This document shows positions 1-14,978 of a DNA stretch of 64,000 nucleotides, piece after piece. The first letter of the stretch is position 1. Each line of letters starts with the position of its first letter. The position numbers were made by a program, and so were the translations under genes. Source of the stretch: Rhodoluna sp. (lineage in GTDB: Bacteria; Actinomycetota; Actinomycetes; Actinomycetales; Microbacteriaceae); contig JAHEBZ010000001.1 of NCBI GenBank assembly GCA_024641985.1, positions 78,056 through 142,055 of the forward strand, read 5' to 3'. A model generated the notes under the pieces. That model was not told where the DNA came from. It ran no database searches and was given only the letters and a program-made list of their open reading frames with translations.

Positions 1-423
1 GTTGTTGAACCCGAAGTTGTTGCCACGCCGATAGTGGCTTCACCGGTTATTGATGTCGCGGTTGAAACGCTGCCAGAATCGCCCAAGGAGGCAACAATTC
101 TCGATCGGTCTGCCGTCAAATTTGGAGCCACCTCGGGGCCTCATGTGGCAACCACCGGCAAAATCGAGTTAATTGCCCCAAGCGAATCGGTGCAACCAAT
201 CGAGTCGACGAACCCAACCGATTCACTGCAACCAATCGAGTCGACGAACCCAATCGAACCAGGTGGGCCAATTGAATCAACCGATGCTAATCTCGAGCCA
301 ATGCCCTTGATTTATTTGGGTGTCGGCGGCTTAACAGGCGCTGCCATAACGCTTGGCGTGGCCCGCGCTTTGACCTCAAGGCGCACCAGACCTAGCAAGA
401 GATTGCAGCGGCTGTATGCATAG
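1..423 (+). CDS. C-terminal part of a membrane-anchored low-complexity protein (5' end outside window)
   Basis: The frame is open from the first base, so the true start lies upstream of the window; 140 residues are visible. They form a Pro/Glu/Ser/Thr-rich acidic stretch containing a 12-residue repeat (unit LQPIESTNPTDS), then one hydrophobic segment encoded at about 304-372, then a short Arg/Lys-rich tail ending LQRLYA. This layout suits a protein with a long extracytoplasmic linker and a single C-terminal membrane anchor with its basic tail inside the cell. No catalytic motif or known domain is visible and there is no LPXTG sorting signal. Function unknown. Confidence 0.6.
   Translation, partial: VVEPEVVATPIVASPVIDVAVETLPESPKEATILDRSAVKFGATSGPHVATTGKIELIAPSESVQPIESTNPTDSLQPIESTNPIEPGGPIESTDANLEPMPLIYLGVGGLTGAAITLGVARALTSRRTRPSKRLQRLYA
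191..253 (+). repeat. 36-bp period direct repeat inside the linker-coding region
   Basis: The 27-nt string at 191-217 recurs exactly at 227-253, a 36-nt period (12 codons). A third, degenerate protein copy (GGPIEST) follows. The repeat encodes the linker of the membrane-anchored protein and may vary in copy number between strains. Confidence 0.75.
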
Positions 424-458
424 CGGCTTTATGCCAGCTGGGTTTATGCCTAGTGGTT

Positions 459-1319
459 TTAGCTAAAAATAACCGTGCGATCGCCATCAAGCAGCACGCG
501 GTGCTCGGCAAACCAACGCACACCTTGGGTGAGGGTTTTGGCCTCAACATCGCGGCCAATCGAAACCATGCGGTTCTTTGAATCGCTGTGCTGAACCCGA
601 ACCACGTTTTGCTCGATAATCGGGCCCTCGTCGAGGTCTCCGGTTACAAAGTGTGCGGTGGCGCCAATTAGCTTTACGCCGCGCGCGTGTGCACGCGCAT
701 AAGGGTTTGCGCCCTTAAAACCAGGCAAGAACGAGTGGTGAATATTGATAATTTTGCCAGCAAACTCTTGGCAGAACTCATCTGAAAGCACCTGCATATA
801 GCGAGCCAAAACAATTAGCTCGATGCCGGCTGAGTGAATGTAGGTGCGCAGCATTTGTTCGAAGGCACGCTTGTCGGCCTCGCCATTGATGGGGTGCACT
901 TCGAAAGGCACACCATAGAACGCGGCCATCTCGGATAGATCGGGGTGGTTGCCAAAAACCGCTGGCACATCAATTGGCAATGTGCCCGAACGCTGGCGAA
1001 ACAGCATGTCGTTTAGGCAGTGTGCACTCTTTGAAACCAGAATCAAGGTCTTCATCGGGCGGCCAACCACATCGAGGTGCCAATCCATTTCATAACGCTC
1101 GATAACCGGAGTGAGCTGGTTCTCGAAGAATTCGCGTGGTGCCGCAGATTCGATTTGCAAGCGCATAAAAAAGCGACCGGTGTCGTTTGAACTGTATTGG
1201 TGCGATTCGGTGATGTTTCCGTTTGCAGCAAAAATTGCACCTGAAATAGCGTGAACAATGCCGGGCTTGTCGTCACAAACGATTGTGAGAACCCAGTGGG
1301 TTGTGGCTGCAGAAGTCAT
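459..1319 (-). CDS. purU: Formyltetrahydrofolate deformylase
   Basis: Hydrolyses 10-formyl-tetrahydrofolate to formate and tetrahydrofolate in the cytosol, balancing the one-carbon pool. An N-terminal ACT domain (about residues 8-85, starting WVLTIVCDDKPGIVHAISG) is followed by a formyltransferase domain with the family's catalytic Asn192, His194 (IINIHHSFLPGFKG) and Asp230 (DLDEGPII). Its 286 residues match the family's usual size. It stands next to glyA and folD, both one-carbon enzymes. The start has no Shine-Dalgarno sequence; a TAAACT hexamer lies 6 nt upstream, suggesting a leaderless mRNA. Confidence 0.95.
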   Translation of the reverse strand: MTSAATTHWVLTIVCDDKPGIVHAISGAIFAANGNITESHQYSSNDTGRFFMRLQIESAAPREFFENQLTPVIERYEMDWHLDVVGRPMKTLILVSKSAHCLNDMLFRQRSGTLPIDVPAVFGNHPDLSEMAAFYGVPFEVHPINGEADKRAFEQMLRTYIHSAGIELIVLARYMQVLSDEFCQEFAGKIINIHHSFLPGFKGANPYARAHARGVKLIGATAHFVTGDLDEGPIIEQNVVRVQHSDSKNRMVSIGRDVEAKTLTQGVRWFAEHRVLLDGDRTVIFS

Positions 1320-1325
1320 GTGGCT

Positions 1326-1331
1326 AGTTTA
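1326..1331 (-). promoter_or_regulatory. -10 hexamer of purU (leaderless)
   Basis: TAAACT on the minus strand ends exactly 6 nt before the purU ATG. This is the spacing expected if transcription starts on the A of the start codon. The same geometry recurs at other genes in this window. Confidence 0.5.
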
Positions 1332-1346
1332 ACCGCCGAGGGGCAA

Positions 1347-1472
1347 TTAACCGCGGTTGCGGCGTTCACGATTGCGGCTGTTATTCACCGAAACTGCTAT
1401 CCAGGCACCTAGCCCCAGGCCTAGAACGATCATTACGATTCCGATAATTACCGGAAGTGGTGCATTAAGCAT
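1347..1472 (-). CDS. Small single-pass membrane protein, 41 residues
   Basis: A short frame in the purU-glyA gap encodes MLNAPLPVIIGIVMIVLGLG followed by more hydrophobic residues and a tail rich in Arg and Asn (NNSRNRERRNRG). This gives one clear transmembrane helix (about residues 7-29) with a positively charged, presumably cytoplasmic, C terminus. A purine-rich AAGAGAGA sits just upstream of the ATG and a TAGACT hexamer about 60 nt upstream. The coding potential comes from this pattern, not from a known family. Function unknown; it could be a small membrane-bound regulator. Confidence 0.6.
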   Translation of the reverse strand: MLNAPLPVIIGIVMIVLGLGLGAWIAVSVNNSRNRERRNRG

Positions 1473-1609
1473 TTTGATTTGTCTCTCTTGTTTTTATGTT
1501 CCCCCGAACATTTCAGCCCCCAGTCTAGGCACATTCACCGAGAGAGCGTGGGAGGTAGTGGGGTTAACCGAATGCAGCGTTCGTCTGCGTGGTGCCAATC
1601 GTCGAATGG

Positions 1610-1643
1610 TAGAATTTGACTACCGCAACCGGCCTTCTAGGAG
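1610..1643 (+). promoter_or_regulatory. Putative glyA -10 box and ribosome binding site
   Basis: TAGAAT at 1610-1615 is a good -10 hexamer about 34 nt before the glyA start, and CTAGGAG at 1637-1643 is a Shine-Dalgarno sequence 6 nt before the ATG. No convincing -35 was found. The rest of 1473-1649 holds the divergent upstream regions of glyA and the 41-residue protein and nothing else recognisable. Confidence 0.45.
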
Positions 1644-1649
1644 CCCAAT

Positions 1650-2921
1650 ATGTCTTCTTCTTTCAACCTTCCATTGAGCGAGACCGATCCAGAGATCGCA
1701 GCCGTTCTGGCAGCCGAGCTTGACCGCCAGCGCCACACCCTCGAAATGATTGCCAGCGAAAACTTTGTTTCGCGCGGTGTTCTAGAGGCTCAGGGTTCTG
1801 TTCTAACCAACAAATATGCAGAGGGCTACCCGGGCAAGCGTTACTACGGTGGTTGCGAGGCCGTTGACGTTGCCGAAAACCTAGCTCGCGACCGCGCAAA
1901 GGCTCTTTTTGGTGCCGAGCACGCAAACGTTCAGCCACACTCGGGCGCATCGGCTAACGCAGCAGTTCTTATGGCTTTGGCCAGCCCAGGCGATCGCATC
2001 CTTGGTCTCGAATTGGCCCACGGTGGCCACCTAACTCACGGCATGCGCTTGAACTTCTCGGGCAAAATGTATGAGGCACACGCCTACGAGCTAAACGCCG
2101 AAACTCACCTAATCGACATGGATATCGTGCGTGCCCGCGCCCACGAGGTAAAGCCAACCGTGCTAATTGCGGGTTGGTCTGCATATTCTCGTCACCTCGA
2201 TTTTGCCGAGTTCCGCAAGATCGCCGACGAAGTTGGTGCCAAGCTGTGGGTCGACATGGCCCACTTTGCTGGTTTGGTTGCGGCTGGTTTGCACCCAAAC
2301 CCGGTTCCGTTTGCAGATGTGGTTTCAACTACCGTTCACAAAACTCTTGCCGGTCCTCGCTCTGGTCTTATTTTGTGCAAGGCCGAATACGCCAAAAAGA
2401 TCGACTCGGCGGTCTTCCCTGGCCAACAGGGTGGCCCTCTGATGCACGTTGTTGCCGCCAAGGCAGTGGCCTTCAAGGCCGCAATGACCGAAGAGTTTAA
2501 AGAGCGCCAACTGCGCACCATCGAGGGTGCGGCCATCATTGCAAACCGCCTAACCCAGGCCGATGTAGTGGCCAACGGTGTGCAGGTTCTAACCGGTGGA
2601 ACCCAGGTTCACCTAGTTTTGGTTGACCTGCGCAACGCCCCAATCAACGGTCAAGAAACCGAAGATTTGCTTCACGAAGTTGGCATCACCGTAAACCGCA
2701 ACTCGGTGCCAAACGACCCACGCCCACCAATGGTTACCTCGGGTGTGCGCATCGGCACCCCGGCACTTGCCACCCGTGGCTTTGGTGCTGCCGAGTTCAC
2801 CGAGGTTGCCGAAATCATCGCCGGTGTTTTGGTGCCAAACCCAGACATCGCCGCTCTTCGCGCCCGCACTCGCAAGCTAACCGAGGCGTTCCCGCTATAC
2901 AGCGGCCTCGAGAACTGGTAG
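1650..2921 (+). CDS. glyA: Serine hydroxymethyltransferase
   Basis: PLP enzyme that converts serine plus tetrahydrofolate to glycine plus 5,10-methylene-tetrahydrofolate, the main entry of one-carbon units. The 423 residues match the family. Characteristic segments are [17 protein letters not shown] near the N terminus, the aspartate of [10 protein letters not shown], and the PLP lysine K231 in [14 protein letters not shown]. The ATG at 1650 follows a CTAGGAG ribosome site. folD starts 4 nt after its stop, so SHMT and the next enzyme of methylene-THF metabolism are co-transcribed. Confidence 0.98.
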
Positions 2922-2925
2922 TCGC

Positions 2926-3810
2926 TTGACCGCGATTAAGCTCGATGGCCTGGCAACTGCAAAGGCCATCAAAGCCGAGCTTGCCGAGCAGGTTGTTGCC
3001 TTAAAACAAAAGGGCATCACCCCTGGGCTTGGCACGCTATTGGTCGGCGACGACCCCGGTTCGCACTCTTATGTGGCCGGCAAACACCGCGATTGCGCCG
3101 AAGTTGGCATTCACTCGATTCGCGTCGACCTGCCAGCAAACGCAACCTCGGCCGATGTTCGGGCTGCAATTCGTGACCTTAACTCGGCCACCGATGTCAC
3201 CGGTTATATCGTTCAGTTGCCGCTACCTTTTGGCATCGACACCAACGAGATGCTCGAGCTGATCGACCCTGCCAAAGATGCCGATGGCCTGCACCCAACC
3301 AACCTTGGCCGGCTAGTGCTTGGTGTTTCTGGCCAGTTAGATTCACCGCTGCCTTGCACTCCGGCCGGCATTGTTGAGTTGCTGTCGCGCTATCAAATCC
3401 CTACCCGCGGTGCCGAGGTGGCCGTGATCGGTCGCGGCGTTACCGTTGGTCGCCCGCTCGGGTTGCTAATGACTCGCAAGGGCATCGATTCGACCGTCAC
3501 ACTTTTGCACTCTGCCAGCCTCGACCTCGAGCACGCCGTAAAGCGAGCCGACATCGTTGTGGCAGCCCTTGGTGTTGCGCATTTTGTGCAACCCGAATGG
3601 ATCAAGCCCGGTGCAGCAGTTCTTGATGTTGGCATCACTCGGGTTGACGGCGAAGGCGGCAAGGCAACGTTGGTTGGCGATGTTGACCCAGGCGTTGCGG
3701 CCGTTGCCGGCTGGCTTTCACCCAACCCGGGGGGCGTTGGCCCCATGACTCGCGCAATGCTCGTGAAGAACGTTGTCGACACAGCAACTCGCACCGCTCA
3801 CCTTCGCTAA
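2926..3810 (+). CDS. folD: Methylenetetrahydrofolate dehydrogenase / methenyltetrahydrofolate cyclohydrolase
   Basis: Bifunctional cytosolic enzyme that oxidises 5,10-methylene-THF (NADP+) and hydrolyses methenyl-THF to 10-formyl-THF. The substrate-binding [15 protein letters not shown] motif lies near residues 46-60 and the nucleotide-binding loop [14 protein letters not shown] near 167-180. At 294 residues it is of normal length. The start codon is TTG, placed 4 nt after the glyA stop, which implies translational coupling. Its product, 10-formyl-THF, is the substrate of the PurU encoded just upstream on the other strand. Confidence 0.96.
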
Positions 3811-3813
3811 ACC

Positions 3814-5139
3814 CTAGGTAACCCGGCTTCCGCTGTCTTCAATTTCAAGATACTTTTTCGAAACCACGATGTCGCGCATGCGCGAAATGCCATCCCAAAT
3901 TTCGGTGTAGCTGGTTGGCAATGGTGCGATAGCAAGGCGAATTGAATCGGGCACCCGATAGTCGGGAATGGTGTTTGCAAACTGCCGCATGGCCGCCGCG
4001 ATTCGCTTTGCTTCGGGGTGGCCCACAGTGATGTGCCCGCCGCGCTGATTGTGATCACGCGGGGTTAGCAGGCTAAAACCAAGCGGCGCCAGCCAGGTGT
4101 CATACAGAGCCAAAATTAGTTCGGTGCCAACGGCCGCCTTGTGGCTAATTGCCTGCATGCCGGCCTCCTCGATCATTGCATAGCTTGCCTGCACACCCCT
4201 GATGCCGATAATCGATGGGCTGGCAATTTGAAAGCGGCGGATGTGCTGCGCGGCCTCGAAAACCGGGCCCATCACAAACTGTTTGTCGTTGGCAAACCAG
4301 CCCTGAATCGGGGCCAGAAAATCGGTTTGCAGTTCTTTGCGCACATATAACCAGGCCGGCGAACCAGGCCCAGAGTTGCCATATTTGTAGGTGCAGCCAA
4401 CCGCTAGGTCAACGCCCCATTCATCGAATCTAAGGTCGATTGCACCGCCGGCGTGCGAGGCATCCCAGACAACCAAGCCGCCGTGCGAGCGAACCAAATC
4501 GGTGATGGCCTTGATGTTTGGGCGCGAACCAGACCGATAGTGAATTGCCTGCAAAGTCACCAGCGCAACATCGTCGTTTAGCAGCGGTGCCAATATTTCG
4601 GTCGTGATCATCTCGCAATCAGAGTCGACATCAACCTGGCCCGGGCCACCAAAACCATCGTTGTTTAGTGTGATCAGATTCAGGCCCATCGATTCGGCGA
4701 TGCCGGCCAGAATATAGCGATCGGTCGGAAAGTTTGACGAATCGATGATGACGGTCTTGCGCCCTGGGCGAGCCTTGATTGCGGCCACGCAGAGCTGATA
4801 GAAATTCACCGAGGTTGTGTCTTGCACAAGAGTTTGGCCTTCGGCCGCACCAAGCGTTGCGCGACCAAGCAGGTTGCCGGCCACCTGGGCTTCATCGATC
4901 CAATGCGACCAACCATCCACCAGCTCGGTGCCCCACTCTTCGGTCAAAAAGTGATTGACCGATTCGATTGCCTTAAGTGGCAGTCGGCCAAGCGAGTTGC
5001 CATCCAAATAGCAAAGGTCGGGGTCTTTGATGAAGAACTGCGATTTGTATGCAGTCAGCGGGTCGGCCGAATCCATTGCCAGAGCAGTCGCGCGGTCGGT
5101 TGGGTCGCCAAATTGGGCGAGCTGCAGCTTCGGGTTCAT
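3814..5139 (-). CDS. kynU: Kynureninase-family PLP hydrolase
   Basis: The family cleaves kynurenine (or 3-hydroxykynurenine) to anthranilate (or its 3-hydroxy form) plus alanine. The fold-type I aminotransferase fold is evident: YLDGNSLGRLP near residue 44, VVWDASHAGGAIDLRF with the PLP-contacting Asp and His, and the PLP lysine K252 in GCTYKYGNSGPGSPAWLY. The 441 residues are close to the family norm. No tryptophan dioxygenase, formamidase or kynurenine monooxygenase gene is present in the window. It is the last gene of a minus-strand run, 22 bp after the ABC permease, though a TAGATT hexamer 6 nt before the ATG may give it its own leaderless promoter. True substrate uncertain. Confidence 0.88.
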   Translation of the reverse strand: MNPKLQLAQFGDPTDRATALAMDSADPLTAYKSQFFIKDPDLCYLDGNSLGRLPLKAIESVNHFLTEEWGTELVDGWSHWIDEAQVAGNLLGRATLGAAEGQTLVQDTTSVNFYQLCVAAIKARPGRKTVIIDSSNFPTDRYILAGIAESMGLNLITLNNDGFGGPGQVDVDSDCEMITTEILAPLLNDDVALVTLQAIHYRSGSRPNIKAITDLVRSHGGLVVWDASHAGGAIDLRFDEWGVDLAVGCTYKYGNSGPGSPAWLYVRKELQTDFLAPIQGWFANDKQFVMGPVFEAAQHIRRFQIASPSIIGIRGVQASYAMIEEAGMQAISHKAAVGTELILALYDTWLAPLGFSLLTPRDHNQRGGHITVGHPEAKRIAAAMRQFANTIPDYRVPDSIRLAIAPLPTSYTEIWDGISRMRDIVVSKKYLEIEDSGSRVT

Positions 5140-5145
5140 GGTCCA

Positions 5146-5151
5146 AATCTA
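5146..5151 (-). promoter_or_regulatory. -10 hexamer of kynU (leaderless)
   Basis: TAGATT on the minus strand ends 6 nt before the kynU ATG, the leaderless geometry seen elsewhere in this window. It could supplement read-through from the upstream transporter genes. Confidence 0.4.
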
Positions 5152-5161
5152 ACCTGTTTTA

Positions 5162-5914
5162 TTAGGCGGTTGCCGCGCTCCAACGCTTGAAAAGCGCCTG
5201 GGCCAACCAATCCATGGCAAAACCAATTAGCCCAATAAGAAGCATGATGCCGGCCAGCAAATCATAGGCAAGCTGATCGCGAGCGTTAAGAATTTGATAG
5301 CCCAAACCAGAATCAACGCCAAGCATTTCGGCTGGCACCAAAACAATCCAGGCCACACCCAGAGCCAACCGCACGCCGGTGAGCACGTGTGAGCGAATGC
5401 CAGGCACCACTATTGAGCGCAGTGTTTCGCCCCGGGTTGCGCCGAGCGATTTGGCCAGCAACGACCAGTTTGGGTCGAGCGCCTTCACGCCGGCAGCCGT
5501 AGACATGGTGATTGGCCAAACCGCCGCGATGGCAATTAAAAAAACCACCGGGGGAGTGCCAATGCCAAACAGCACAACGGCAACGGGTGCCCATGACAGC
5601 GGCGAGACCATGCGCAAAAACTGAACCACGATCGAGGTCGATTGCTCGACTCGACGACGTGAACCAATGGCAAGCCCAAGCGCAACACCGATTACTGCGG
5701 CAATTAACAAGCCATAACCGAGGCGCTCGAGGCTAACCGCTATGGTTTGCCAAATGGCTCCAGATTCGAATGTGGTTGCCAATGCGGCAACCGCGTCGAA
5801 GGGGCTCATCGAAGCCAAAATGGGGTTGTCGGCCGACAGCACATCGGTTGAGAACCACCACAGCGCTATTGCTGCCAACGCGGTGATGGCCCTAAGAAAG
5901 ACGCCTAGAATCAC
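5162..5914 (-). CDS. ABC transporter permease, nitrate/sulfonate/taurine (SsuC/NrtB) family
   Basis: Inner-membrane subunit of an importer. The 250 residues show about six hydrophobic segments and the ABC-permease EAA loop (LGATRGETLRSIVVPGI near residues 158-174), which docks onto the ATPase. Its start overlaps the stop of the binding-protein gene by 4 nt, so the two are translated together. The family moves small anions and heterocycles, and sequence alone does not fix the substrate. The kynureninase-family gene follows 22 bp downstream. Confidence 0.9.
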   Translation of the reverse strand: MILGVFLRAITALAAIALWWFSTDVLSADNPILASMSPFDAVAALATTFESGAIWQTIAVSLERLGYGLLIAAVIGVALGLAIGSRRRVEQSTSIVVQFLRMVSPLSWAPVAVVLFGIGTPPVVFLIAIAAVWPITMSTAAGVKALDPNWSLLAKSLGATRGETLRSIVVPGIRSHVLTGVRLALGVAWIVLVPAEMLGVDSGLGYQILNARDQLAYDLLAGIMLLIGLIGFAMDWLAQALFKRWSAATA

Positions 5915-7128
5915 GGCTTGATGACCTCGGTGCGGGTTAATTTGGCAGGTAGGCCAAACTTTGCGTTGCCACCGTTGTTGGTAATTGCCGCCTCGGCTAG
6001 GCCAACTGCAACCAGGTCTTTGTGCGCGGTCTTCAAGTTGATTTTGCTCAAGAAGCTGGCGTCGCCGTCAATTTTGGTCTTCTTCAGCTCACTAATCAGT
6101 GCGGTTGTGTAACTAGGAAACGGGAACGGCTTGAAATCGATGCGGTTCGACTTCCATTCGGGGTGCTTGATCGCAGTTTTGTATTCGGCAAGCGAATAGT
6201 CGTTGAGGGCCTTGTTGATCGCCGGCAACGGCTGTGGCAAGTAGCCCTTCGATGAGAGCAGGCTTGCCGCACCCTTTCGGTCTTTGATCAGCTCGAGCTG
6301 AGCGCGAACGATTGCATCGGTCAACGCGATTGCGGCCGAAGGGTTGTTTTTGATCAAATCTCCGCGCACCACGGTTACGCAGCAGGCGTGCTCTTTCCAA
6401 ACATCGCCGGTGAAACGCAAAATCTTTCCGATGCCCTTCACTTCGGCAACGGCATTAAACGGATCGGCTACGATGTAGCCCGCAATCTGGCCGTTGGCCA
6501 ATGCGGTTGGCATGTCGGCGGGCGCAAGAACTACCAGTTTTACGGTTTTCTTGGCCGCACTGGCATCGCCGCTTGTTATGGCGCTCAGGCCCTCGGCGCG
6601 AAACAGTTGCTGCAAAACAACGTTGTGAATCGAATACCAAAATGGAATCGCAACTGTCTTGCCGGCTAGCTCGCTGAACTTATTGATGCTCTTGTTCACG
6701 GTCAGTGCAGAGCCGTTGGTGTGGTTCCAGGTGATCACCTTGATGTCTTGTTTAGCGGCAAATTTTAGCTGCAACGCCAATGGCATCAGCAGGTGCACAA
6801 CGTCGAGTTGCTTGGCCTGAAAGGCCTCTACCAGCGACGGCCACGAACGGAACAACTTTGGCTGCTCGGTCTTAATGCCAACTTCTTCAAAGATGCCTTT
6901 GGCGTGACCGATCAGCAACGGAGATGCATCGGTGATTGGCAGGTAACCAATCTTCAATTTGCCAAGGGCGTTTGTCCAGCTGGCGGCGTTTGCCGGCGCA
7001 GCCTCGCCAAAGCCAACCACCGAGGCCGAAGCGGCGCCAACTGCGGCTAGGCGCAACAGGGTGCGGCGGTCGAACCAACCGTTGGTGTCGTGTGCGCAGG
7101 TAGCATCTAGGGCATTGTTTTCAGACAT
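5911..7128 (-). CDS. ABC transporter substrate-binding protein, NrtA/SsuA family, twin-arginine signal
   Basis: Extracytoplasmic binding protein of the importer, 405 residues. I place the start at 7128 (MSENNALD) because AAGAGAGA precedes it and longer frames would overlap the ATPase gene. The N terminus has a twin-arginine motif (DRRTLLRL, Arg21-Arg22), a hydrophobic stretch and an Ala-x-Ala cleavage site near residue 48. There is no lipobox cysteine. The mature part begins KLKIGYLPITDASPLLIGHA, typical of the nitrate/bicarbonate/sulfonate-binding family, and has VHLLMPLALQ and GYIVADPFNAVAEV segments. How it stays at the cell surface without a lipid anchor is unclear. Confidence 0.9.
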   Translation of the reverse strand: MSENNALDATCAHDTNGWFDRRTLLRLAAVGAASASVVGFGEAAPANAASWTNALGKLKIGYLPITDASPLLIGHAKGIFEEVGIKTEQPKLFRSWPSLVEAFQAKQLDVVHLLMPLALQLKFAAKQDIKVITWNHTNGSALTVNKSINKFSELAGKTVAIPFWYSIHNVVLQQLFRAEGLSAITSGDASAAKKTVKLVVLAPADMPTALANGQIAGYIVADPFNAVAEVKGIGKILRFTGDVWKEHACCVTVVRGDLIKNNPSAAIALTDAIVRAQLELIKDRKGAASLLSSKGYLPQPLPAINKALNDYSLAEYKTAIKHPEWKSNRIDFKPFPFPSYTTALISELKKTKIDGDASFLSKINLKTAHKDLVAVGLAEAAITNNGGNAKFGLPAKLTRTEVIKP

Positions 7129-7138
7129 TTTTTCTCTC

Positions 7139-7876
7139 TTAGATTGAATAGCCGAGTTGTGAAATAATTTCGGCCTTGAGGCCTTGTTTGCTTTGATCGT
7201 TTTCGGCCACCGAATAACTGGTTGCGGCAACGCCAGGCTCATTGAGCAAAAGAACCCGATCGGCAACAGCGAGGGCTTCATCGATGTCGTGGGTGACAAT
7301 CACGATGGTCAGCTCGAGCTTGGCGCGCAGATCTTTTAGCCAGGCTTGCAGGCCAGCACGAGTGGCCGCATCGAGCGCCGAAAAAGGCTCATCAAGCAGC
7401 AGCAACTTTGGCTCGGTCACGATGGTTCTGGCAATCGCAACGCGCTGCGCCTGCCCACCAGAGAGCTGGTTAACTTTGCGGTCGGCTAACTCAGAAATGC
7501 CAAGAATTTTGAGCAGATTCAGAACCTTGGCATCGCGTTCGGTTGCGCTGCCACCCAATGCCTTGCGATTGGCCTTGAAGCTAAAGCCCAGCCGAACGTT
7601 TTGGCGAACCGAAAGCCAAGGCAACAGCAACGCCTCTTGAAAAACTAAACCCGAAGCCCGTTTGCCAGGTGCGGCAAAAAGCTCGATGTTGCCCGAAGCG
7701 ATTTGAAGCAAACCTGCCAAGCCGTGAAGCAAAGTGGTTTTTCCTCGACCCGAGCCACCTACAACGGCAAGAATCTCGCCCTCGGTGATTTCTAGGTTTA
7801 GGTTCTCGATTATCGGCGCAACATTGTTTGCGCGGCTGATCGAAACATTTACGAGGCTAGCTGCGAGATTTCCCAT
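7139..7876 (-). CDS. ABC transporter ATP-binding protein, nitrate/sulfonate (SsuB) family
   Basis: Energises the importer from the cytoplasmic face. All nucleotide-binding motifs are intact: Walker A GGSGRGKTTL (residues 40-49), Q-loop region LVFQEALLLPWLSV, signature LSGGQAQRVAIART, Walker B LLLLDEPFSALD and the switch histidine in IVIVTHDIDEAL. The 245 residues are normal for the family. Its start lies 28 nt inside the 3' end of the upstream flavoprotein gene and its stop is 10 bp before the binding-protein start, so it belongs to the same transcript. Confidence 0.93.
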   Translation of the reverse strand: MGNLAASLVNVSISRANNVAPIIENLNLEITEGEILAVVGGSGRGKTTLLHGLAGLLQIASGNIELFAAPGKRASGLVFQEALLLPWLSVRQNVRLGFSFKANRKALGGSATERDAKVLNLLKILGISELADRKVNQLSGGQAQRVAIARTIVTEPKLLLLDEPFSALDAATRAGLQAWLKDLRAKLELTIVIVTHDIDEALAVADRVLLLNEPGVAATSYSVAENDQSKQGLKAEIISQLGYSI

Positions 7877-8910
7877 CGCAGGCTCCCCTCGGTAGGCGCT
7901 TGAACCGAGAGAAATAGAGATTCGCGAATTCGGCGCGAGGTATCGCTGGAGCTGAAATAACCGCGACCACCGATGGTAGCCAACTCGATTCGGGTAATCG
8001 CCTGGGCAAGCTCGGCTGCGGCCAAGCGCAATTTTAAGAATGCCAGCGGGGCCAAACCGTTGGCGGGTGCCGGGTAAGCGTTTAGGTCGTTGGCCAAAAC
8101 ATTAAGTTCGCCCTGAAGCCTGGCAAGTTCTTCTTCGAATCGTGAGATGTCGTCGGCAAACGGCAACGTGCCGCTCGAGGCGTTCACGGCCTTCAACGAT
8201 GCCTTGCTGAGGCCAAGGCAGAAAGCCGACTGCAGCACCAAAAAGCGGGGGCGCATTTGCCCCAAAAAGAAGTCGACATCGCGGGTTAGAACATTGTTGG
8301 CGGCCAGGCGCAGCCCTTCAAATTTGACCGTGCCGGAAGATGTTGCATTTAGCGCCAAGAGCTCGCCGGCGGGTTTAACCGAAACGCCCGGTTGGCCCAA
8401 CAACGCGGCAAATACAACACGTTCTTCGGTTGTTTCATTGCGGGCCGCAAACACAGCCAAGGTGTCTTCATAGAGGTTTGATGCCCAGGGAATCACGCCA
8501 TTGATCTCAAACGTGCCCGCATCTTCGGTGAAAGTGATTGGCAATAGCTCTTTGCCAGACTTATCGGCAAGAGCGGTAGCCAGTGCAGTCGACCCAACTC
8601 GAGTGCCAGATCTCAACTCATCTAAGTGAGCTGCGCGCAGCGCCTCGCTGCCGAAACGATCAACATATTCGGTAGTCATGCGGTGCGACCAAGTAACAAA
8701 GGCAGAGCTCATGCATTTTTCGGCGAGGCCCTGAATAACCTGGGCCTGAGCGGCAATTGGCGCAACGCTGTCAGACAACCCGAAGGCCGTGAAACCCTGG
8801 CCAACGATGTCTTCTAGAAGCACTCGTCGCAGATTGTGGTCGTCTTTATCGACGTTCTTAGCGCAATCTTCGACCTGTTGAAGAAGCGAGTCAAGTGTGG
8901 TGGCAGGCAT
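7849..8910 (-). CDS. Acyl-CoA-dehydrogenase-fold flavoprotein, substrate unknown
   Basis: A 353-residue protein with the acyl-CoA dehydrogenase architecture: an N-terminal helical part, a beta domain (about 115-215) and a C-terminal helical bundle ending IGGRGYFSSSDTSRRIRESL and APTEGSLRWEIS. The TEGS segment sits where acyl-CoA dehydrogenases have their YEGT catalytic Glu loop. The family also includes flavin-dependent monooxygenases acting on sulfur, nitrogen or aromatic compounds (DszC, SfnB, nitrososynthases). Because it is locked into an importer operon with a kynureninase relative, I infer it oxidises the imported compound or a derivative. It lacks beta-oxidation neighbours, so a fatty-acid role is less likely. 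Confidence 0.75.
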   Translation of the reverse strand: MPATTLDSLLQQVEDCAKNVDKDDHNLRRVLLEDIVGQGFTAFGLSDSVAPIAAQAQVIQGLAEKCMSSAFVTWSHRMTTEYVDRFGSEALRAAHLDELRSGTRVGSTALATALADKSGKELLPITFTEDAGTFEINGVIPWASNLYEDTLAVFAARNETTEERVVFAALLGQPGVSVKPAGELLALNATSSGTVKFEGLRLAANNVLTRDVDFFLGQMRPRFLVLQSAFCLGLSKASLKAVNASSGTLPFADDISRFEEELARLQGELNVLANDLNAYPAPANGLAPLAFLKLRLAAAELAQAITRIELATIGGRGYFSSSDTSRRIRESLFLSVQAPTEGSLRWEISQLAS

Positions 8911-8912
8911 GG

Positions 8913-9428
8913 TTAGCCCTCTAGTTTGTGTAGTCGGCTGATCGGGGTGTCGACAACCTGGCGGGCCGCAACAACTGCGTCTTCGCTGTCGCCATCATAG
9001 AAGCAGAGGCACTTAACCATGTCTTCACGCACATAGGTGCGCAAGAACTTTACGTCTTCGATGTCGTTGTAAAGCGGTGACTTTTCTTTCTTGCGAGCAA
9101 GATACTTGTCCATGGTTAAACCCTCTGGAAAATCCCACTCGACCAAATATTGGCCAGCCGGCTTTAGCTTTTTGATGTCTTCGAGTTCGGCGCCGATTAA
9201 GCGCACCAAAGCAAGTTCATCCACCTTGAAGCCAGCCGAGTCGAGGTCACCTCGAAGGGTCACAATGTTGTCGTGCTCGAGAACGGCAAATACTCGATTG
9301 TGGTCAGCCGTCACTTGGCTTTCAATAAAACTTCCGCCGGCTTTTTGCGCTGCCGCCTCAATGCCGGCAAGAACATCTTGGATGCTCTCGTTAGCAGTCG
9401 TGTCAATTTCGGCAACATAAAGCGACAT
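8913..9428 (-). CDS. Tandem DUF4242-domain protein
   Basis: 171 residues from the ATG at 9428, chosen because GAGGAG lies just upstream; a start 30 nt earlier lacks one. The C-terminal half (YLVEWDFPEGL to the end, with TYVREDMVKCLCFYDG) matches the DUF4242 / SCO4226-type ferredoxin-like domain, known as a nickel-binding protein in Streptomyces. The N-terminal half has the same layout (LYVAEID, then VTADHNRVFAVLEHDN), so the protein looks like an internal duplication. It opens the operon, 2 bp before the flavoprotein gene. Its role is unknown; metal or substrate binding is possible. Confidence 0.7.
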   Translation of the reverse strand: MSLYVAEIDTTANESIQDVLAGIEAAAQKAGGSFIESQVTADHNRVFAVLEHDNIVTLRGDLDSAGFKVDELALVRLIGAELEDIKKLKPAGQYLVEWDFPEGLTMDKYLARKKEKSPLYNDIEDVKFLRTYVREDMVKCLCFYDGDSEDAVVAARQVVDTPISRLHKLEG

Positions 9429-9503
9429 GGGGGCTCCTCGAACGGTGAATGGATTCATTCAAAATTACCGAGGTGCGGCCATTGCCATTTGAAAGTTACA
9501 GCG

Positions 9504-9530
9504 TGTGACTAACTGTTAAGTTTTGTGACT
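9504..9530. promoter_or_regulatory. Direct repeat TGTGACT x2 upstream of the DUF4242-kynU operon
   Basis: TGTGACT occurs at 9504-9510 and 9524-9530, exactly 20 bp (two helical turns) apart, and AACTGTTAAGTT (arms AACT/AGTT) lies between them. They are 76-102 bp upstream of the first operon gene, a plausible site for a transcription factor. On the minus strand, TTAACA (9517-9522) and TAACTT (9496-9501) within this area are possible promoter boxes, but their 15-bp spacing is short. Confidence 0.4.
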
Positions 9531-9545
9531 TTGCCCAGTTGCGAA

Positions 9546-11360
9546 CTAGACCAAAAGCTGCTGTTTTGCGAGCTTCTTGTAGAGCGGAGTCGAGGCCACC
9601 AATTCGCTGTGTGTGCCAATTCCGACAATTTTGCCGTGTTCGATAACAATGATTTGATCGCTATCGACCACAGTTGATAGCCGGTGGGCAATCACCAAAA
9701 GAGTGCGGTTTTTGGCAACAGAATCAATGGCCTCACGCATGCGCTGTTCGTTCAAGCCATCGAGCGATGAGGTCGATTCGTCGAGCAACAAAATAGGGGG
9801 CGCGGCCAAAAGCGCACGCGCGATCGCAAGCCTCTGGCGCTCGCCACCCGAAAGCATGATTCCGTTTTCGCCCACCTCCGCATCGAGCCCACGCTTGTCG
9901 CGTTCGAGCACCTCGGTCAGGTTCACCTCTTCGAGCACTGCCTTCAGCTGCTCGTCGGTGGCATCGGGCGCACCGATCAGCAGGTTTGCCTTGATCGAGC
10001 CGGCAAGCACCGGGGCATCTTGCTCTACATAACCAATTTGGGCGCGAAGGGCATCTCGGCTAAGCAAGGTGACCGCCTGACCATCCATCAAAATTTGCCC
10101 AGCGGTTGGTTCATAGAATCGCTCGATCAAAGAGAAGGTGGTTGATTTGCCAGAACCAGATGGCCCAACCAGCGCAACCCTTGAACCGCGCTTAATCGAG
10201 AACGAAACGTTTTCAAGAACTTCGCGCGCTTCGGGGTTTGGGTTTTCTTCGGTGGCTGCCGGCTCGGCATAACCAAAAGTTACGTTTTTAAACTCGATGG
10301 CAACATCGTTGACGGCCTTTGGCTTTGCCGAATTTTTGGTTTCTTTCTCGGTCTCTTCAACCGGCACATCCAAGATCTCTTGAATGCGAGCCAGTGCACC
10401 CAAACCAGATTGAACCGAGCTGTAGGCGCCGAAGGCCTGCCCAAGCGGGCGAATCATCTGGAACATTAAAAGGATGAACGTGACCAAGCTGGCAACCGTG
10501 GTGGCGCCAGTGGCAACCCGATAACCGCCCACGCCGAGCACCACAATGAATGCGCCATTCATGGCAAGGCCGGCAATTGGGGTGATCATTGCGTTGATCT
10601 TGGCGATCTTTACGCCCTGCTTGAAGGCTTCTTTGGCATCATCGGCAATCAATCTGCTTTCGCGTTTTTCGGCTCGGGCTGCACGAATGGTTCGAACCGC
10701 GCTCAGTGCCCGCTCAACCGCCGCCGACATATCGCCAACTCGCTGTTGAGCCTTGGTTGTGGCCGAGCGAACCTGACGTGCTGTGATGGCGATCGAAGCG
10801 ATGGCGATGACCACCATGATGAGGGTTAGGCCAAGCAATATTGGGTCGATGATTGCCATGGCAACCAGGGAGCCAACAAAAATCAAAATGCCGCCAACCG
10901 CATCAACCAAACCCTGGGTTAGCACCGCCCTGAGCAAAGTGGTGTCTGAACCGACCCGCGAAACCAGGTCGCCTGTGCGGCGAAGATCGTATTCGTGAAT
11001 GGGCAATTTGAGCAGTCGGTTTGCCAGCTTTTGTCGCGCCGAAAACACTACGCCTTCGCCCGCTTTGGCCAAAACGTAATACATAAAGCCGCCAAGAACC
11101 GCGCTGCCCAAAATAACCGCAACCAAGATCAACACCAGCGAACCAAGATCGCCACCGGTTTGAACGGCGCTAATAACCATGCCAACAACTAGCGGTTGCG
11201 CCAAACTGATCGCAGCGCCAGCAACCGATAGCCCCATAGCCAACCAGAGCGCACTTTTGTGTTCGGTTAGGTAAGGCCAAAGCTGCGAGAATTTTGCCTT
11301 CGGCCCGGTGTCTTTTGGTGCCATCGATCTGCCGCGCCCGCGGCCGCCCATCATGCTCAT
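9546..11360 (-). CDS. ABC exporter, fused membrane and ATPase domains (MsbA/BmrA type)
   Basis: 604-residue half-transporter that works as a dimer to export drugs or lipids. The transmembrane domain (about residues 35-320) has six hydrophobic helices. The C-terminal ATPase has Walker A GPSGSGKSTTFSLIERF, signature LSGGERQRLAIARALL, Walker B PPILLLDEST and the H-loop VIAHRLSTVVDSDQI. The N terminus is glycine/arginine-rich (GGRGRGRS). It starts 6 bp after the methyltransferase stop, so the two probably share a transcript. Export substrate cannot be read from the sequence. Confidence 0.92.
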   Translation of the reverse strand: MSMMGGRGRGRSMAPKDTGPKAKFSQLWPYLTEHKSALWLAMGLSVAGAAISLAQPLVVGMVISAVQTGGDLGSLVLILVAVILGSAVLGGFMYYVLAKAGEGVVFSARQKLANRLLKLPIHEYDLRRTGDLVSRVGSDTTLLRAVLTQGLVDAVGGILIFVGSLVAMAIIDPILLGLTLIMVVIAIASIAITARQVRSATTKAQQRVGDMSAAVERALSAVRTIRAARAEKRESRLIADDAKEAFKQGVKIAKINAMITPIAGLAMNGAFIVVLGVGGYRVATGATTVASLVTFILLMFQMIRPLGQAFGAYSSVQSGLGALARIQEILDVPVEETEKETKNSAKPKAVNDVAIEFKNVTFGYAEPAATEENPNPEAREVLENVSFSIKRGSRVALVGPSGSGKSTTFSLIERFYEPTAGQILMDGQAVTLLSRDALRAQIGYVEQDAPVLAGSIKANLLIGAPDATDEQLKAVLEEVNLTEVLERDKRGLDAEVGENGIMLSGGERQRLAIARALLAAPPILLLDESTSSLDGLNEQRMREAIDSVAKNRTLLVIAHRLSTVVDSDQIIVIEHGKIVGIGTHSELVASTPLYKKLAKQQLLV

Positions 11361-11366
11361 ATTTAG

Positions 11367-12239
11367 TTAAACCTGATTCTCTAGATGTGGATTCCCGAGG
11401 ATTTTCTCGTTCAGAAGATAGTTGATTTCTGGTAGCGAAAGTGCGGGGGTGTAGGCGGTGTTTTTGTAGAAGGTTTCGAAGTTAACGCTTTGCAAGGCTT
11501 CGAGTGATTTTGGGTGGGTAAGCTTCAGAAACATTCGAGTCGAGTTTGGTTTGCGCTCGAAATCGGTTCGAACCGTGCCGCAGCCAAACCCAAAAATGGT
11601 TAGAGCAATATCTGCCGAAACGGGATCGGTCTTTTCGATCAAGCCTTGGTCGCGAACCTTGATAAGTGGGCGCAGATCGCTTTTGCGCTGCCATATTTGA
11701 AAGCAGGTGTTGAGGCCGTTTCGCTGTGATATCTTGCTGCCCGAATCGTCTTCATAATCAATTTGAATATCGTGATCGGCAATCAAGTGAAAGCGGCGAT
11801 CGAGCCGGTTGATAACCGACCATTTGCGCCAAGATCTTGGCACGATGAAGCAGATGAATTCGCTGTGGTCTGCTGCCTTGTTGAAAAAGGGGATCGACAG
11901 CGAGTTGTTGCGGCCAAAGGGCGGGTTCGAGATGGTCACTGCGTTTTCGGTGAGAACCGGGGCCGCAAGAAAATCGGCCTTCAAAACATCTTGATGTTTG
12001 GGCTCAATGTCGAACGAAAGAAAATCGGTTACCCCCGCCAATCTGGCCGCCTCAATAAACGAACCGGTGCCACCAGCAGGCTCAATCACTGCCCGTTCAG
12101 CCAAATTTGGCACGAGCGCGGCAACCTCTTTTATTAGCTGCCTAGCCAGTTCTTTTGGCGTGTAATACTGCTCTTTGCCTGTCACTCGCTTGTTGCCGGG
12201 GCGCTGGCGCACGGCAGGTTTAGCGGTGTTAGAAGGCAT
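11367..12239 (-). CDS. Orphan N6-adenine-type DNA methyltransferase
   Basis: 290 residues. The motifs are those of SAM-dependent adenine methyltransferases: a QYYTP segment near residue 24, motif I VIEPAGGTGSF (51-61) for SAM, and motif IV NPPFGRN (105-111), the catalytic NPPF. No restriction enzyme or specificity subunit is adjacent, so it is solitary. It could mark DNA for regulation, be a remnant of a restriction system, or modify another nucleic acid. It is transcribed with the downstream ABC exporter (6-bp gap). A TAGCCT hexamer ends 6 nt before the ATG. Confidence 0.75.
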   Translation of the reverse strand: MPSNTAKPAVRQRPGNKRVTGKEQYYTPKELARQLIKEVAALVPNLAERAVIEPAGGTGSFIEAARLAGVTDFLSFDIEPKHQDVLKADFLAAPVLTENAVTISNPPFGRNNSLSIPFFNKAADHSEFICFIVPRSWRKWSVINRLDRRFHLIADHDIQIDYEDDSGSKISQRNGLNTCFQIWQRKSDLRPLIKVRDQGLIEKTDPVSADIALTIFGFGCGTVRTDFERKPNSTRMFLKLTHPKSLEALQSVNFETFYKNTAYTPALSLPEINYLLNEKILGNPHLENQV

Positions 12240-12245
12240 TCAATA

Positions 12246-12251
12246 AGGCTA
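12246..12251 (-). promoter_or_regulatory. -10 hexamer of the methyltransferase gene (leaderless)
   Basis: TAGCCT on the minus strand ends 6 nt before the ATG at 12239. It overlaps the upstream region of the divergent ABC-2 exporter genes, which start only 28 bp away, so the two promoters must interleave. Confidence 0.4.
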
Positions 12252-12267
12252 GTAGATTGGAGGGACT

Positions 12268-13209
12268 ATGAACTCTTCAATGTCGATGCAGAACATGATC
12301 GAGGCCAAGGGCCTAACTAAAAAATATGCCGATTTCGTTGCCGTCGATGGCATCGATTTTGTGGTCAAGCGGGGCGAGGCCTTTGGTCTGCTGGGGCCAA
12401 ACGGCGCGGGCAAGTCGACCACCATGAAGATGATTGCATCGGTGTCAAAGCGCACCGGTGGCGAGCTGACCATTCTGGGCAAAGACCCAAATAAATACGG
12501 CCCCGAAATCAGAGCCCACCTTGGCGTTGTGCCTCAGCAAGACAATCTTGATCGCGAGCTAAAGGTTCACGAGAACCTGTTTAGCTATGGTCGGTTCTTT
12601 GGCCTGAGTCGCAAATTTTTGAAGGGCAAAGTAGAAGAACTGCTCGAGTTTGCACAGTTGACCGAAAAGCGAAACAGCAAAGCCGAAGAGCTTTCGGGTG
12701 GCATGAAGCGCCGCCTCACAATCGCCCGCGGCCTGGTTAACGAACCCGAAATTTTGATGCTCGACGAACCAACCACCGGCCTCGACCCACAGGCTAGGCA
12801 CATCCTCTGGGATCGCCTGTTTAGGCTAAAAGAGCAGGGTGTCACATTGGTGATTACAACCCACTACATGGATGAAGCCGAGCAGCTCTGCGACCGCCTG
12901 ATTGTGATGGACAAGGGCAAGATTATGGCCGAGGGTTCGCCCGCCAACCTAATCAGAGAGTATTCATCGAAAGAAGTATTAGAGGTTCGATTCGGGTCAA
13001 GCCGCAACGCAGAGGTGGCCGAACAGCTCAAGGGCATTGGCGATCGAATCGAGATATTGCCTGACCGTATTCTGATTTACTCAGAAAACGGCGAGGCCGA
13101 CCTGCGCACCATTTTGACTCGTGGGCTAGACCCGGTTACATCGTTGGTTCGCCGCAGTTCGCTCGAAGATGTGTTCTTGCGACTAACCGGCAGAACGTTG
13201 GTCGAATAA
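12268..13209 (+). CDS. ABC-2 exporter ATP-binding protein (DrrA/NodI-like)
   Basis: 313 residues. ATPase motifs are Walker A GPNGAGKSTTMKMI, signature LSGGMKRRLTIARGLV and Walker B EILMLDEPTTGLDP, followed by a C-terminal extension of about 80 residues typical of DrrA-type drug and polysaccharide exporters. A GGAGGG ribosome site precedes the ATG at 12268. It is followed by two ABC-2 permease genes with overlapping starts, so the three form one exporter. Substrate unknown; daunorubicin-type annotations only reflect family resemblance. Confidence 0.92.
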   Translation: MNSSMSMQNMIEAKGLTKKYADFVAVDGIDFVVKRGEAFGLLGPNGAGKSTTMKMIASVSKRTGGELTILGKDPNKYGPEIRAHLGVVPQQDNLDRELKVHENLFSYGRFFGLSRKFLKGKVEELLEFAQLTEKRNSKAEELSGGMKRRLTIARGLVNEPEILMLDEPTTGLDPQARHILWDRLFRLKEQGVTLVITTHYMDEAEQLCDRLIVMDKGKIMAEGSPANLIREYSSKEVLEVRFGSSRNAEVAEQLKGIGDRIEILPDRILIYSENGEADLRTILTRGLDPVTSLVRRSSLEDVFLRLTGRTLVE

Positions 13210-14075
13210 TGGCCGAAGCAGCCTCGATCGAACAGAAGGTTCACAAAAGCGCCTGGCAAGGTTCATTCAAGTTAGTTAACGTGCAGCGCGCAATAACTTT
13301 TGCCTGGATGCACGTCGCCGAGGCTCGCCTTCGCACCATGATCAAATGGTGGGGTTCGATGCTCTCGTTCGGGCTCGGCAATCCCGTGTTGTATTTGTTT
13401 TCGGTGGGCATTGGCATCGGTGCCCTGGTCGATTCAAACGGCACCAATGGTCAGTTGGGTGGGGTTTCTTATCTAGCTTTTTTGGCGCCGGCATTGCTTG
13501 CCACCGCTGCCATTCAAGCCTGCCAAGATGAGCTCTCGTTTCCGATTATGGAGGGGTTCCTCTGGGATAAAACCTTCTTTGCGATGAATGCAACGCCGAT
13601 TCGCGGTCGCGACATCATGGGCGGGCTGCTGGCCTCTGCAATGGTTCGCACCATTTTCACCACGGCGCTTTATGAGGCCATCTTGCTTCTGTTTGGGGCA
13701 ATCGAGCTTGATGCGGCATTGCCGATGTTCTTTACCGCACTGCTTGCCGGGTTGGCATTTGGGGCCGGCATGATGGCCGCAAGCAGCTACGTTAAAGAGG
13801 ATGACGGGTTCTTTGCCATCGTGGGCCGCTTTGTGGTTGCGCCCATGTTCATGTTCTCGGGCACCTTCTACCCGCTCGAATCTATGCCGATTTATCTGCA
13901 GTGGATCGGCTGGATTTCGCCGCTTTGGCATGGCACCGATTTGGGGCGCATCCTTAGTTATGGGCAGCCCCAGCAGGCTTGGGTAATTGCTAGCCACTGG
14001 GTTTATCTAACCGTTTGGGCGGCAATCGGAATGACTTTGGCAGCACGAAAAATTTCGCAGAGGTTGGCAGCATGA
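13209..14075 (+). CDS. ABC-2 type exporter permease, first subunit
   Basis: 288-residue membrane protein with about six hydrophobic segments and an ABC-2 layout, including the conserved end FMFSGTFYPLESMPIYLQWI. Its ATG overlaps the stop of the ATPase gene by 1 nt (TAATG). It resembles the next permease, notably in the FSGTFYPL motif and in the SPLWHGTDL versus WPLWHAIQL segments, so the exporter probably uses a permease heterodimer. Confidence 0.9.
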   Translation: MAEAASIEQKVHKSAWQGSFKLVNVQRAITFAWMHVAEARLRTMIKWWGSMLSFGLGNPVLYLFSVGIGIGALVDSNGTNGQLGGVSYLAFLAPALLATAAIQACQDELSFPIMEGFLWDKTFFAMNATPIRGRDIMGGLLASAMVRTIFTTALYEAILLLFGAIELDAALPMFFTALLAGLAFGAGMMAASSYVKEDDGFFAIVGRFVVAPMFMFSGTFYPLESMPIYLQWIGWISPLWHGTDLGRILSYGQPQQAWVIASHWVYLTVWAAIGMTLAARKISQRLAA

Positions 14076-14917
14076 GCCTGATAAATGCGAGCGTTGACTC
14101 GGCCATCGCCATTGCCGAACGGCGGCGCAACAAGCTTGGATCAAGCGTTTATTCGGGTCGCAGTTCGGTGGTTCTCGAGCGCGGGTTTATGGCGCTGAAA
14201 ACATCTAACTGGATCATCGTGGCATCTGGCTTCGTTGAGCCCGTTCTCTATTTGCTTGCCTTTGGGTTTGGCATCGGTCAGTTGGTTGGCGCTGTTTCAG
14301 GGTCTAACGGCCAACAAATTTCATACGCCGCATTCATCGCCCCGGCTCTTTTGGCCACCTCGGCCATGAACGGCGCAATCTATGACTCAACTTGGAACGT
14401 GTTTTTCAAGATGCACTTTGCCAAGCTTTACCAAACCATGCTGTCAACCTCGCTTGGCCCCTTGGATGTGGCGATCGGCGAAATCAGTTGGGCGTTGCTG
14501 CGCGGTTTGGTCTATTCGCTTGGTTTCATGACAGTGATGGCTGCCCTTGGTCTTATAACCAGTTGGTGGGCCATCTTGGCAATTCCCGGCGCGGTGTTGA
14601 TTGCCTTTGGTTTTGCCTCGGTGGGCATGGGAATCACGTCTTACCTGAAAAATCTTCATCAGATGAACTGGATCAACTTCTTCATGTTGCCGATGTTTCT
14701 GTTTTCGGGCACTTTCTACCCGCTGTCAATCTACCCAGATTGGCTGCAGGCTTTTATTCAGGCATGGCCGCTTTGGCACGCAATTCAACTTGAGCGGGCC
14801 TTTATGCTCGGCAATCTTTCACCAGAGATTTTCGGCCACATTCTCTACTTCGTGGCCATGATTGTGCTTGGTTTGGTGTTTACCACCAAACGGCTAACCG
14901 CCCTGTTTATGCGCTAG
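14072..14917 (+). CDS. ABC-2 type exporter permease, second subunit
   Basis: 281 residues from the ATG at 14072, which overlaps the previous stop as ATGA. Longer in-frame starts would lie inside the previous gene. About six transmembrane helices are visible, with FLFSGTFYPLSIYPDWLQAF near residues 208-227. It is paralogous to the first permease and completes the exporter with it and the DrrA-like ATPase. Confidence 0.9.
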   Translation: MSLINASVDSAIAIAERRRNKLGSSVYSGRSSVVLERGFMALKTSNWIIVASGFVEPVLYLLAFGFGIGQLVGAVSGSNGQQISYAAFIAPALLATSAMNGAIYDSTWNVFFKMHFAKLYQTMLSTSLGPLDVAIGEISWALLRGLVYSLGFMTVMAALGLITSWWAILAIPGAVLIAFGFASVGMGITSYLKNLHQMNWINFFMLPMFLFSGTFYPLSIYPDWLQAFIQAWPLWHAIQLERAFMLGNLSPEIFGHILYFVAMIVLGLVFTTKRLTALFMR

Positions 14918-14978
14918 ACCCAGGCCGCTAATTGTCATACCTTTGATTTAGGTTGATTTCAACTACATCGGGGGATAG

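Follow-up and report, generated by a model that had tools for sequence, protein, structure and literature searches.

An importer–flavoprotein module with an exchangeable small cysteine protein, and the separate context of its kynureninase neighbor in Rhodoluna

Do six closely spaced genes on one strand necessarily serve one pathway? This question is raised by a locus of Rhodoluna sp. (assembly GCA_024641985.1). In a stretch of 64,000 nucleotides (contig JAHEBZ010000001.1, positions 78,056 to 142,055; hereafter the window), positions 3814–9428 carry six minus-strand genes with gaps of 2, -28, 10, -4, and 22 bp, encoding a tandem DUF4242 protein, a flavoprotein with the acyl-CoA-dehydrogenase fold, the three components of an NrtA/SsuA-type ATP-binding cassette (ABC) importer, and a kynureninase. 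A first-pass annotation had read them as one operon importing and degrading a nitrogen- or sulfur-containing, perhaps aromatic compound; we confirmed all of its coordinates, and its family names for all six genes agreed with profile matches. Comparison with other genomes divided the operon: the first five genes are a widespread unit, and kynureninase has a context of its own. To the reading that the five-gene module imports a small sulfur compound, oxidizes it in a flavin-dependent reaction and passes the sulfur to a thiol partner, kynureninase being unrelated, we give a probability of about one half.

The five-gene unit and its distribution

The first gene of the module (8913–9428) starts at a conserved MSLY and encodes the tandem DUF4242/SCO4226-like protein. 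It is followed on the same strand by the genes for the flavoprotein (7849–8910), the importer ATPase (7139–7876), the substrate-binding protein of the NMT1_2/SsuA-NrtA class (5911–7128), and the permease (5162–5914). The binding protein and the permease were assigned to the Pfam families NMT1_2 and BPD_transp_1, respectively, and the best NCBIfam matches of the ATPase included sulfate, nitrate, taurine, and sulfonate types, all below their cut-offs. The N terminus of the binding protein, read by eye, is twin-arginine-like (DRRTLLRLAA).

Genome contigs were searched once with a profile built from three aligned flavoproteins, and the 28 loci obtained were compared with 17 plasmid loci (L083–L090, L092–L095, and L112–L116), with L005 and L006, and with the window itself, 48 loci in all. 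One plasmid record contributed both L090 and L113; the plasmid stretches L091 and L117, which overlap counted records, and the fetched loci L007 and L081 were left out. The first five genes recurred jointly in many of these loci, and the earlier claim that the DUF4242 protein, the flavoprotein, and the importer belong together was thus upheld. The five-gene unit is real and widespread, with variants in five phyla: the DUF4242-type cassette was found in Actinomycetota, Cyanobacteriota, and Thermomicrobiota, and variants of it in Deinococcota and Pseudomonadota. The binding protein accompanied the flavoprotein in 43 of the 48 loci; within the genus, two of 60 genomes were found to encode the binding protein. 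Among 72,556 plasmid records, 43 matched the flavoprotein (E <=1e-15), 46 the binding protein (E <=1e-50), and 10 the tandem DUF4242 protein (E <=1e-8). Gene order was not constant; the importer genes ran opposite to the DUF4242 gene in L006, L011, L018, and L033, and preceded the OsmC gene found in place of DUF4242 in L089, L094, and L116.

Among the 40 of 46 plasmid binding proteins listed, identity with that of the window was 49–55% for DUF4242 types, 50–51% for Bartonella, 46–50% for types with a carboxymuconolactone-decarboxylase (CMD)-like protein, 42% for the Deinococcus CMD type, and 39–46% for proteobacterial OsmC types. The binding proteins of actinobacterial OsmC types showed 28–30% identity, and in view of these lower values the substrate of the OsmC type may differ from that of the others. 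In a flavoprotein tree of 29 rows, which had long branches and unsure deeper joins, five actinobacterial OsmC-type rows stood apart (100/99), and the window grouped with L008 and L009 (100/100). The L009 contig is labeled as a Bifidobacterium breve metagenome-assembled genome, a label that may be wrong. On the Pseudonocardia plasmid pBCI1-2 (L085, 1–5344), a second ABC importer, an NtaA/DmoA-type monooxygenase, and an acyl-CoA-dehydrogenase-like gene lie beside the cassette.

Slot partners, sulfur neighborhoods, and proposed function

The position of the small protein was occupied by a tandem DUF4242 protein in 29 loci, an OsmC protein in 9, and a CMD/AhpD-like protein in 8, never by two at one locus; it was empty in L031, where only the permease and flavoprotein were shown, and in L087 (Bartonella). 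A 108-residue protein encoded after the Bartonella cassette was considered as a fourth partner and rejected, having a single cysteine and no Pfam family. The window DUF4242 protein matched PF14026 with 73.9 bits (cut-off 28.5), best in its second half, whereas its first half gave only a marginal DUF3303 match; a PDB search with it returned no credible match. Its C140 and C142, forming a CxC pair, were invariant in all 29 cassette DUF4242 proteins. This pair was found in none of 28 other DUF4242 domains (the usable rows among 30 drawn from the top-scoring loci when the class was searched), which keep the second cysteine only. In the AhpD-like partner a CxxC pair and a third cysteine were invariant (8/8), and the OsmC partner had one cysteine invariant in 9/9 and a second in 5/9. 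Because of this cysteine conservation and the mutual exclusion of the partners, the exchange of three unrelated cysteine proteins in one slot would hint at a thiol step that they have in common.

The window flavoprotein scored under the Pfam gathering values for the N-terminal and middle acyl-CoA dehydrogenase domains (18.0 against 22.9 and 17.6 against 33.3 bits), but a PDB search matched it to short-chain acyl-CoA dehydrogenases (7.5e-10). At position 338, which an alignment by eye to the dehydrogenase motif would place at the site of the usual catalytic glutamate, the aligned flavoproteins had serine (24/29) or alanine (5/29); the PDB alignments end ahead of this motif. The SfnB profile was weakly matched by 20 of the 29, and the DszC profile by one. 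A flavin reductase gene lay within about 1 kb of four of the nine OsmC-type homologues, which makes an oxygenase-type role plausible, in line with the oxidation step of the first-pass annotation. One flavin reductase is present elsewhere in the window's genome.

Genes of sulfur metabolism adjoined the cassette in several loci. On the plasmid pANL of Synechococcus elongatus, cysK (cysteine synthase) and a gamma-glutamyltransferase gene are followed by the cassette, and the same plasmid encodes SrpI, CyD, serine acetyltransferase, and a second cysK. In an excerpt of PMC8049743, SrpI is described as upregulated on sulfur starvation and the plasmid as encoding many sulfur-related genes. Downstream of the Kovacikia cassette were a TauE-family exporter and an Rrf2-like regulator, and a rhodanese-domain gene lay further downstream of the cassette on a Pseudonocardia plasmid. 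In Variovorax (CMD type), a gene annotated TauE/SafE was found a few genes upstream. Among the OsmC types, L012 combined OsmC, cyanase, flavoprotein, flavin reductase, and importer with a rhodanese-like stretch, a metallo-beta-lactamase and rhodanese protein (persulfide dioxygenase-like by its domains only), and TauE. L016 carried a flavin reductase, a rhodanese, a mycothione reductase (above its cut-off), and an Rv2466c-like protein; L089 encoded a rhodanese-domain sulfurtransferase, and L116 a rubredoxin-plus-reductase fusion and a cyanase. Also on pANL (L083, 731–1309), a gene of the beta-carbonic-anhydrase family (PF00484) and an Rrf2 regulator gene precede a catalase gene; this enzyme family includes carbonyl sulfide hydrolases.

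From this gene content we propose that the ABC importer, with its ATPase, Tat-type (twin-arginine translocation) binding protein, and permease, would import a small sulfur-containing anion or an organosulfur compound, and that the flavoprotein would oxidize it, probably using flavin that a separate enzyme has reduced. The CxC pair of the tandem DUF4242 protein would then take up the released sulfur or regenerate a thiol state, a place that the OsmC or AhpD-like protein may fill in other bacteria.

Several results weigh against this proposal. The window matched none of the sulfur-gene queries, nor did 23 of the 24 other actinobacterial DUF4242 loci; the remaining one, L032, had no match but a cysK-like gene, 1.7 kb beyond its permease gene. 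The sulfur link of the DUF4242 type is drawn from few neighborhoods, namely pANL, Kovacikia, and one Pseudonocardia plasmid. In 13 control stretches (12 kynureninase loci and one stretch of the same-genus genome G010 away from its cassette) no query matched except kynureninase itself, and this is a weak control that gives no proper background rate. Flavin reductase was unmatched in the 29 DUF4242 and 8 CMD loci, the SfnB score of the window flavoprotein (34.7 bits) was far below the equivalog cut-off of 430.9, and five of the 48 loci (L016, L020, L024, L031, and L113) had the flavoprotein without the binding protein. Finally, PF01077, a family that covers nitrite as well as sulfite reductases, was present in 6 of 8 tandem-DUF4242 carriers and in 305 of 394 genomes class-wide, so carriers were not enriched for sulfite reductase loss.

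PF01077 and the 3'-phosphoadenosine 5'-phosphosulfate reductase family PF01507 were both absent from the window's genome, which is 91% complete. A sulfite-level product could therefore not be assimilated there by that route, and either a product at the thiol or sulfane level would be needed or the role would not be assimilation. Both families were absent from G000, G010, and G096, and likewise from the cassette-free G204, and both were present in G092 and G154; presence of both (G092, G154) and absence of both (G000, G010, G204) occurred within one genus. The idea that carriers depend on the cassette after losing sulfate assimilation was rejected, having looked partly true in the family and being unsupported class-wide.

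The best-surviving alternative is that the module detoxifies an organic compound, or degrades it for carbon or nitrogen, the sulfur neighbors being accidental. A TetR gene was divergent to the DUF4242 gene in 18 of the 24 actinobacterial DUF4242 loci searched (no match in L005, L008, L009, L017, L030, and L035), and such an arrangement is typical of ligand-induced catabolic genes. In the window, which lay outside the TetR search, gene calls and families placed abcB and not TetR upstream of the DUF4242 gene. The scarcity of sulfur genes in the same 24 loci also fits this alternative, but the contexts on pANL, in Kovacikia, and in OsmC-type loci speak against accident, and we consider it unlikely while giving it real weight.

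A more specific form of the sulfur proposal is that the module is an unrecognized aerobic route that takes sulfur from thiocyanate or a similar compound with a C=S group. After import, a flavin monooxygenase of the acyl-CoA-dehydrogenase fold would yield cyanate, which cyanase would clear in organisms that encode it, and sulfane sulfur, to be held by the DUF4242 CxC pair, OsmC, or the AhpD-like protein. Cyanase was encoded in two of the nine OsmC-type loci and in none of the 29 DUF4242 and 8 CMD loci; a search of 13 genomes, among them 10 carriers, found it in two, both of which carry the cassette. For the window itself the conversion of thiocyanate to cyanate was rejected, since cyanase was absent from G000, G010, and G096. 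Thiocyanate is a bold guess at a putative substrate, and this route as a whole is decidedly unlikely.

The binding protein raised a further alternative, in which nitrate, nitrite, cyanate, or bicarbonate is imported and the enzymes are unrelated. Its profile matched NrtC/CmpC regulatory domains, NrtA, CmpA, the structure 3un6, and a taurine-binding protein, and it fell below the SsuA/TauA cut-offs (TIGR01728, 95 against 163.5 bits; taurine models, 35.7 against 490 and 34.6 against 304.25). Cyanase in two OsmC-type loci would also agree with an importer of such anions. However, in an alignment to NrtC/CmpC domains rather than to NrtA, the lysine column of these domains was an invariant cysteine here (C250, 23/23). 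We take that lysine to be an anion ligand in NrtA, and its replacement therefore disfavors nitrate or bicarbonate. The joint occurrence of binding protein and flavoprotein also argues against unrelated enzymes, and we regard this alternative as improbable.

Slightly poorer is the prospect that the module acquires a metal such as nickel, with the binding protein and DUF4242 protein handling the metal or its complex. The binding protein has an invariant C249-C250 pair, and its closest PDB match in a single-sequence search was 3un6, presumably a zinc-bound structure. SCO4226, the founder of the DUF4242 family, binds nickel according to an excerpt of PMC4186839. We placed its ligand columns through SCO4226-like relatives, with SCO4226 itself outside the alignment and the numbering taken from that excerpt. 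In the 29 cassette rows, the His76 column kept histidine in 22, but Asp43 was replaced by arginine (27) or cysteine (2) and Ser46 by methionine, threonine, or leucine. With two of three ligand columns changed, the SCO4226 nickel site is not kept in the cassette proteins, as far as sequence comparison can tell. We also know of no metal role for the OsmC and CMD replacements.

Kynureninase and its separate context

The kynureninase gene (kynU; 3814–5139, minus strand; KYNU_C/TIGR01814) follows the permease as a co-directional neighbor that is older at the locus and lies outside the conserved cassette. The window kynureninase keeps the pyridoxal phosphate (PLP) lysine motif (TYKY) in an alignment, and its TIGR01814 score of 209.8 bits is below the curated cut-off of 246.4. 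This shortfall means little, because two kynU genes that adjoin a dioxygenase gene in relatives also scored below it (206.8 and 228.7 bits). Kynureninase was found in 158 of 249 family genomes and the flavoprotein in 3.

Twelve kynU neighborhoods were fetched from relatives without a flavoprotein match in the family search. In six of them (L068, L069, L070, L072, L073, and L078) kynU lay 15–47 bp from abcB; abcB was not matched beside kynU in the other six (L071, L074–L077, and L079, the last a contig of 4.1 kb). A tryptophan 2,3-dioxygenase-like frame followed kynU in eight (L068, L069, L070, L072, L073, L075, L076, and L079), with one gene between them in L073; in L078 the frame after kynU (8981–9592) is of this family too but shorter. 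The family was confirmed by Pfam in L068, L070, L072, L075, and the L078 frame, and read from N-terminal sequence in L069, L073, L076, and L079. A separate orthologous context, which the first-pass annotation had named as counting against its own proposal, was thus found for kynU.

In G010 the order was abcB, the five-gene cassette, kynU, dioxygenase, and folD. Its tryptophan 2,3-dioxygenase (L005, 12019–12840, between kynU and folD), confirmed by Pfam, has no counterpart in the window, where only 3 bp (3810–3814) separate the kynU stop from folD. PF03301, the tryptophan 2,3-dioxygenase family, was not matched in the window's 91% complete genome; the earlier remark that no other tryptophan-to-kynurenine gene is present holds for this gene, the only one that we looked for. 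The junction of cassette and kynU occurred in three genomes only, those of the window, L005, and L008; L008 has the same insertion as the window, on a contig that ends inside kynU. By parsimony we infer that an ancestor of the window's lineage received the cassette as an insertion separating abcB from kynU. The window kynU would then be what is left of an ordinary kynU-kynA pair (tryptophan to anthranilate), its kynA having later been lost here.

Accordingly, kynureninase can be set aside as the C-C cleaving step that the first-pass annotation had made of it. Its separate context means that an aromatic nitrogen substrate is no longer indicated, sulfur being the better guess. A pathway in which the whole six-gene set breaks down an imported aromatic compound containing nitrogen or sulfur, and in which kynureninase cleaves the C-C bond, is very improbable: the genes are co-directional with a 22 bp gap before kynU, the junction is repeated in L005 and L008, and the PLP lysine motif is kept, but kynU is far more widespread in the family than the flavoprotein, has a dioxygenase gene beside it in eight of the 12 loci that lack the cassette as well as in G010, where both genes lie downstream of the cassette, and was seen in 3 of the 29 DUF4242-type loci and not in the other 26, four of which (L009, L019, L027, and L030) lie on contigs that stop short of the permease gene or shortly past it.

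Surroundings of the locus and known systems

The cassette is flanked upstream by abcB (9546–11360, minus strand), an ABC transporter gene with fused membrane and ATPase domains and the ancestral upstream neighbor of kynU, and kynU by folD (2926–3810, plus strand). A conserved protein encoded upstream of abcB (11370–12239) resembles DNA adenine methyltransferase; its N6_Mtase score of 19.0 bits was below the Pfam cut-off of 20.4, and its L008 homologue had no Pfam match. Some 10 kb past the cassette, positions 19703–21998 hold homologues of L005 genes read as ribE, ribBA, and ribH (putative, riboflavin), and in G010 the putative ribE, ribBA, and ribH genes lie about 3 kb from the cassette. Recent foreign origin by composition was rejected; the guanine-plus-cytosine fraction of the cassette genes (0.51–0.57) was similar to that of the window (0.54). 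No Rfam family was found at gathering scores in window positions 1–16000. Scans gave 4 promoters (2.7 expected) and 14 terminators (8.6 expected, standard deviation 2.8).

Among the matches listed for DUF4242 and related topics, judged by title and the start of the abstract, no description of the module was found, and within that literature its function is apparently undescribed. This concerns a conserved importer–oxidase module of five phyla, often on plasmids and once in a model cyanobacterium, and the partner swap makes its function testable in a laboratory strain. The DUF4242 family gains a concrete setting other than nickel, and the kynureninase case illustrates that a co-directional neighbor can mislead pathway inference.

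Among known systems, the ssuEADCB and tauABCD operons have the importer class and the logic of importer plus oxygenase for sulfur acquisition in common with the module. They differ from it in that the module oxidase has the acyl-CoA-dehydrogenase fold and is not a luciferase-like SsuD or a TauD, no SsuD/TauD-type oxygenase being found among the family and PDB profile matches of the window proteins encoded in the operon; the module also has the extra exchangeable thiol protein and a binding protein below the SsuA/TauA cut-offs. The flavin enzymes SfnB and DszC, which have the acyl-CoA-dehydrogenase fold, are alike to the module flavoproteins by weak profile matches, that of SfnB far below its cut-off. 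In Gordonia, an excerpt of PMC11852219 reports that sfnB and acyl-CoA-dehydrogenase genes, at most candidate homologues of the module gene, change with the sulfur source. SCO4226 has PF14026 in common with the module protein, which differs in being tandem, in its CxC pair, and in two of three nickel-ligand columns. With the kynU-kynA pathway the window is connected by an orthologous kynU, kynA being present in the sister genome G010 and not found in the window's genome. Another counterpart is the plasmid pANL, which carries the same five genes in the same order in a cyanobacterial host, adjoining genes for cysteine synthase and gamma-glutamyltransferase.

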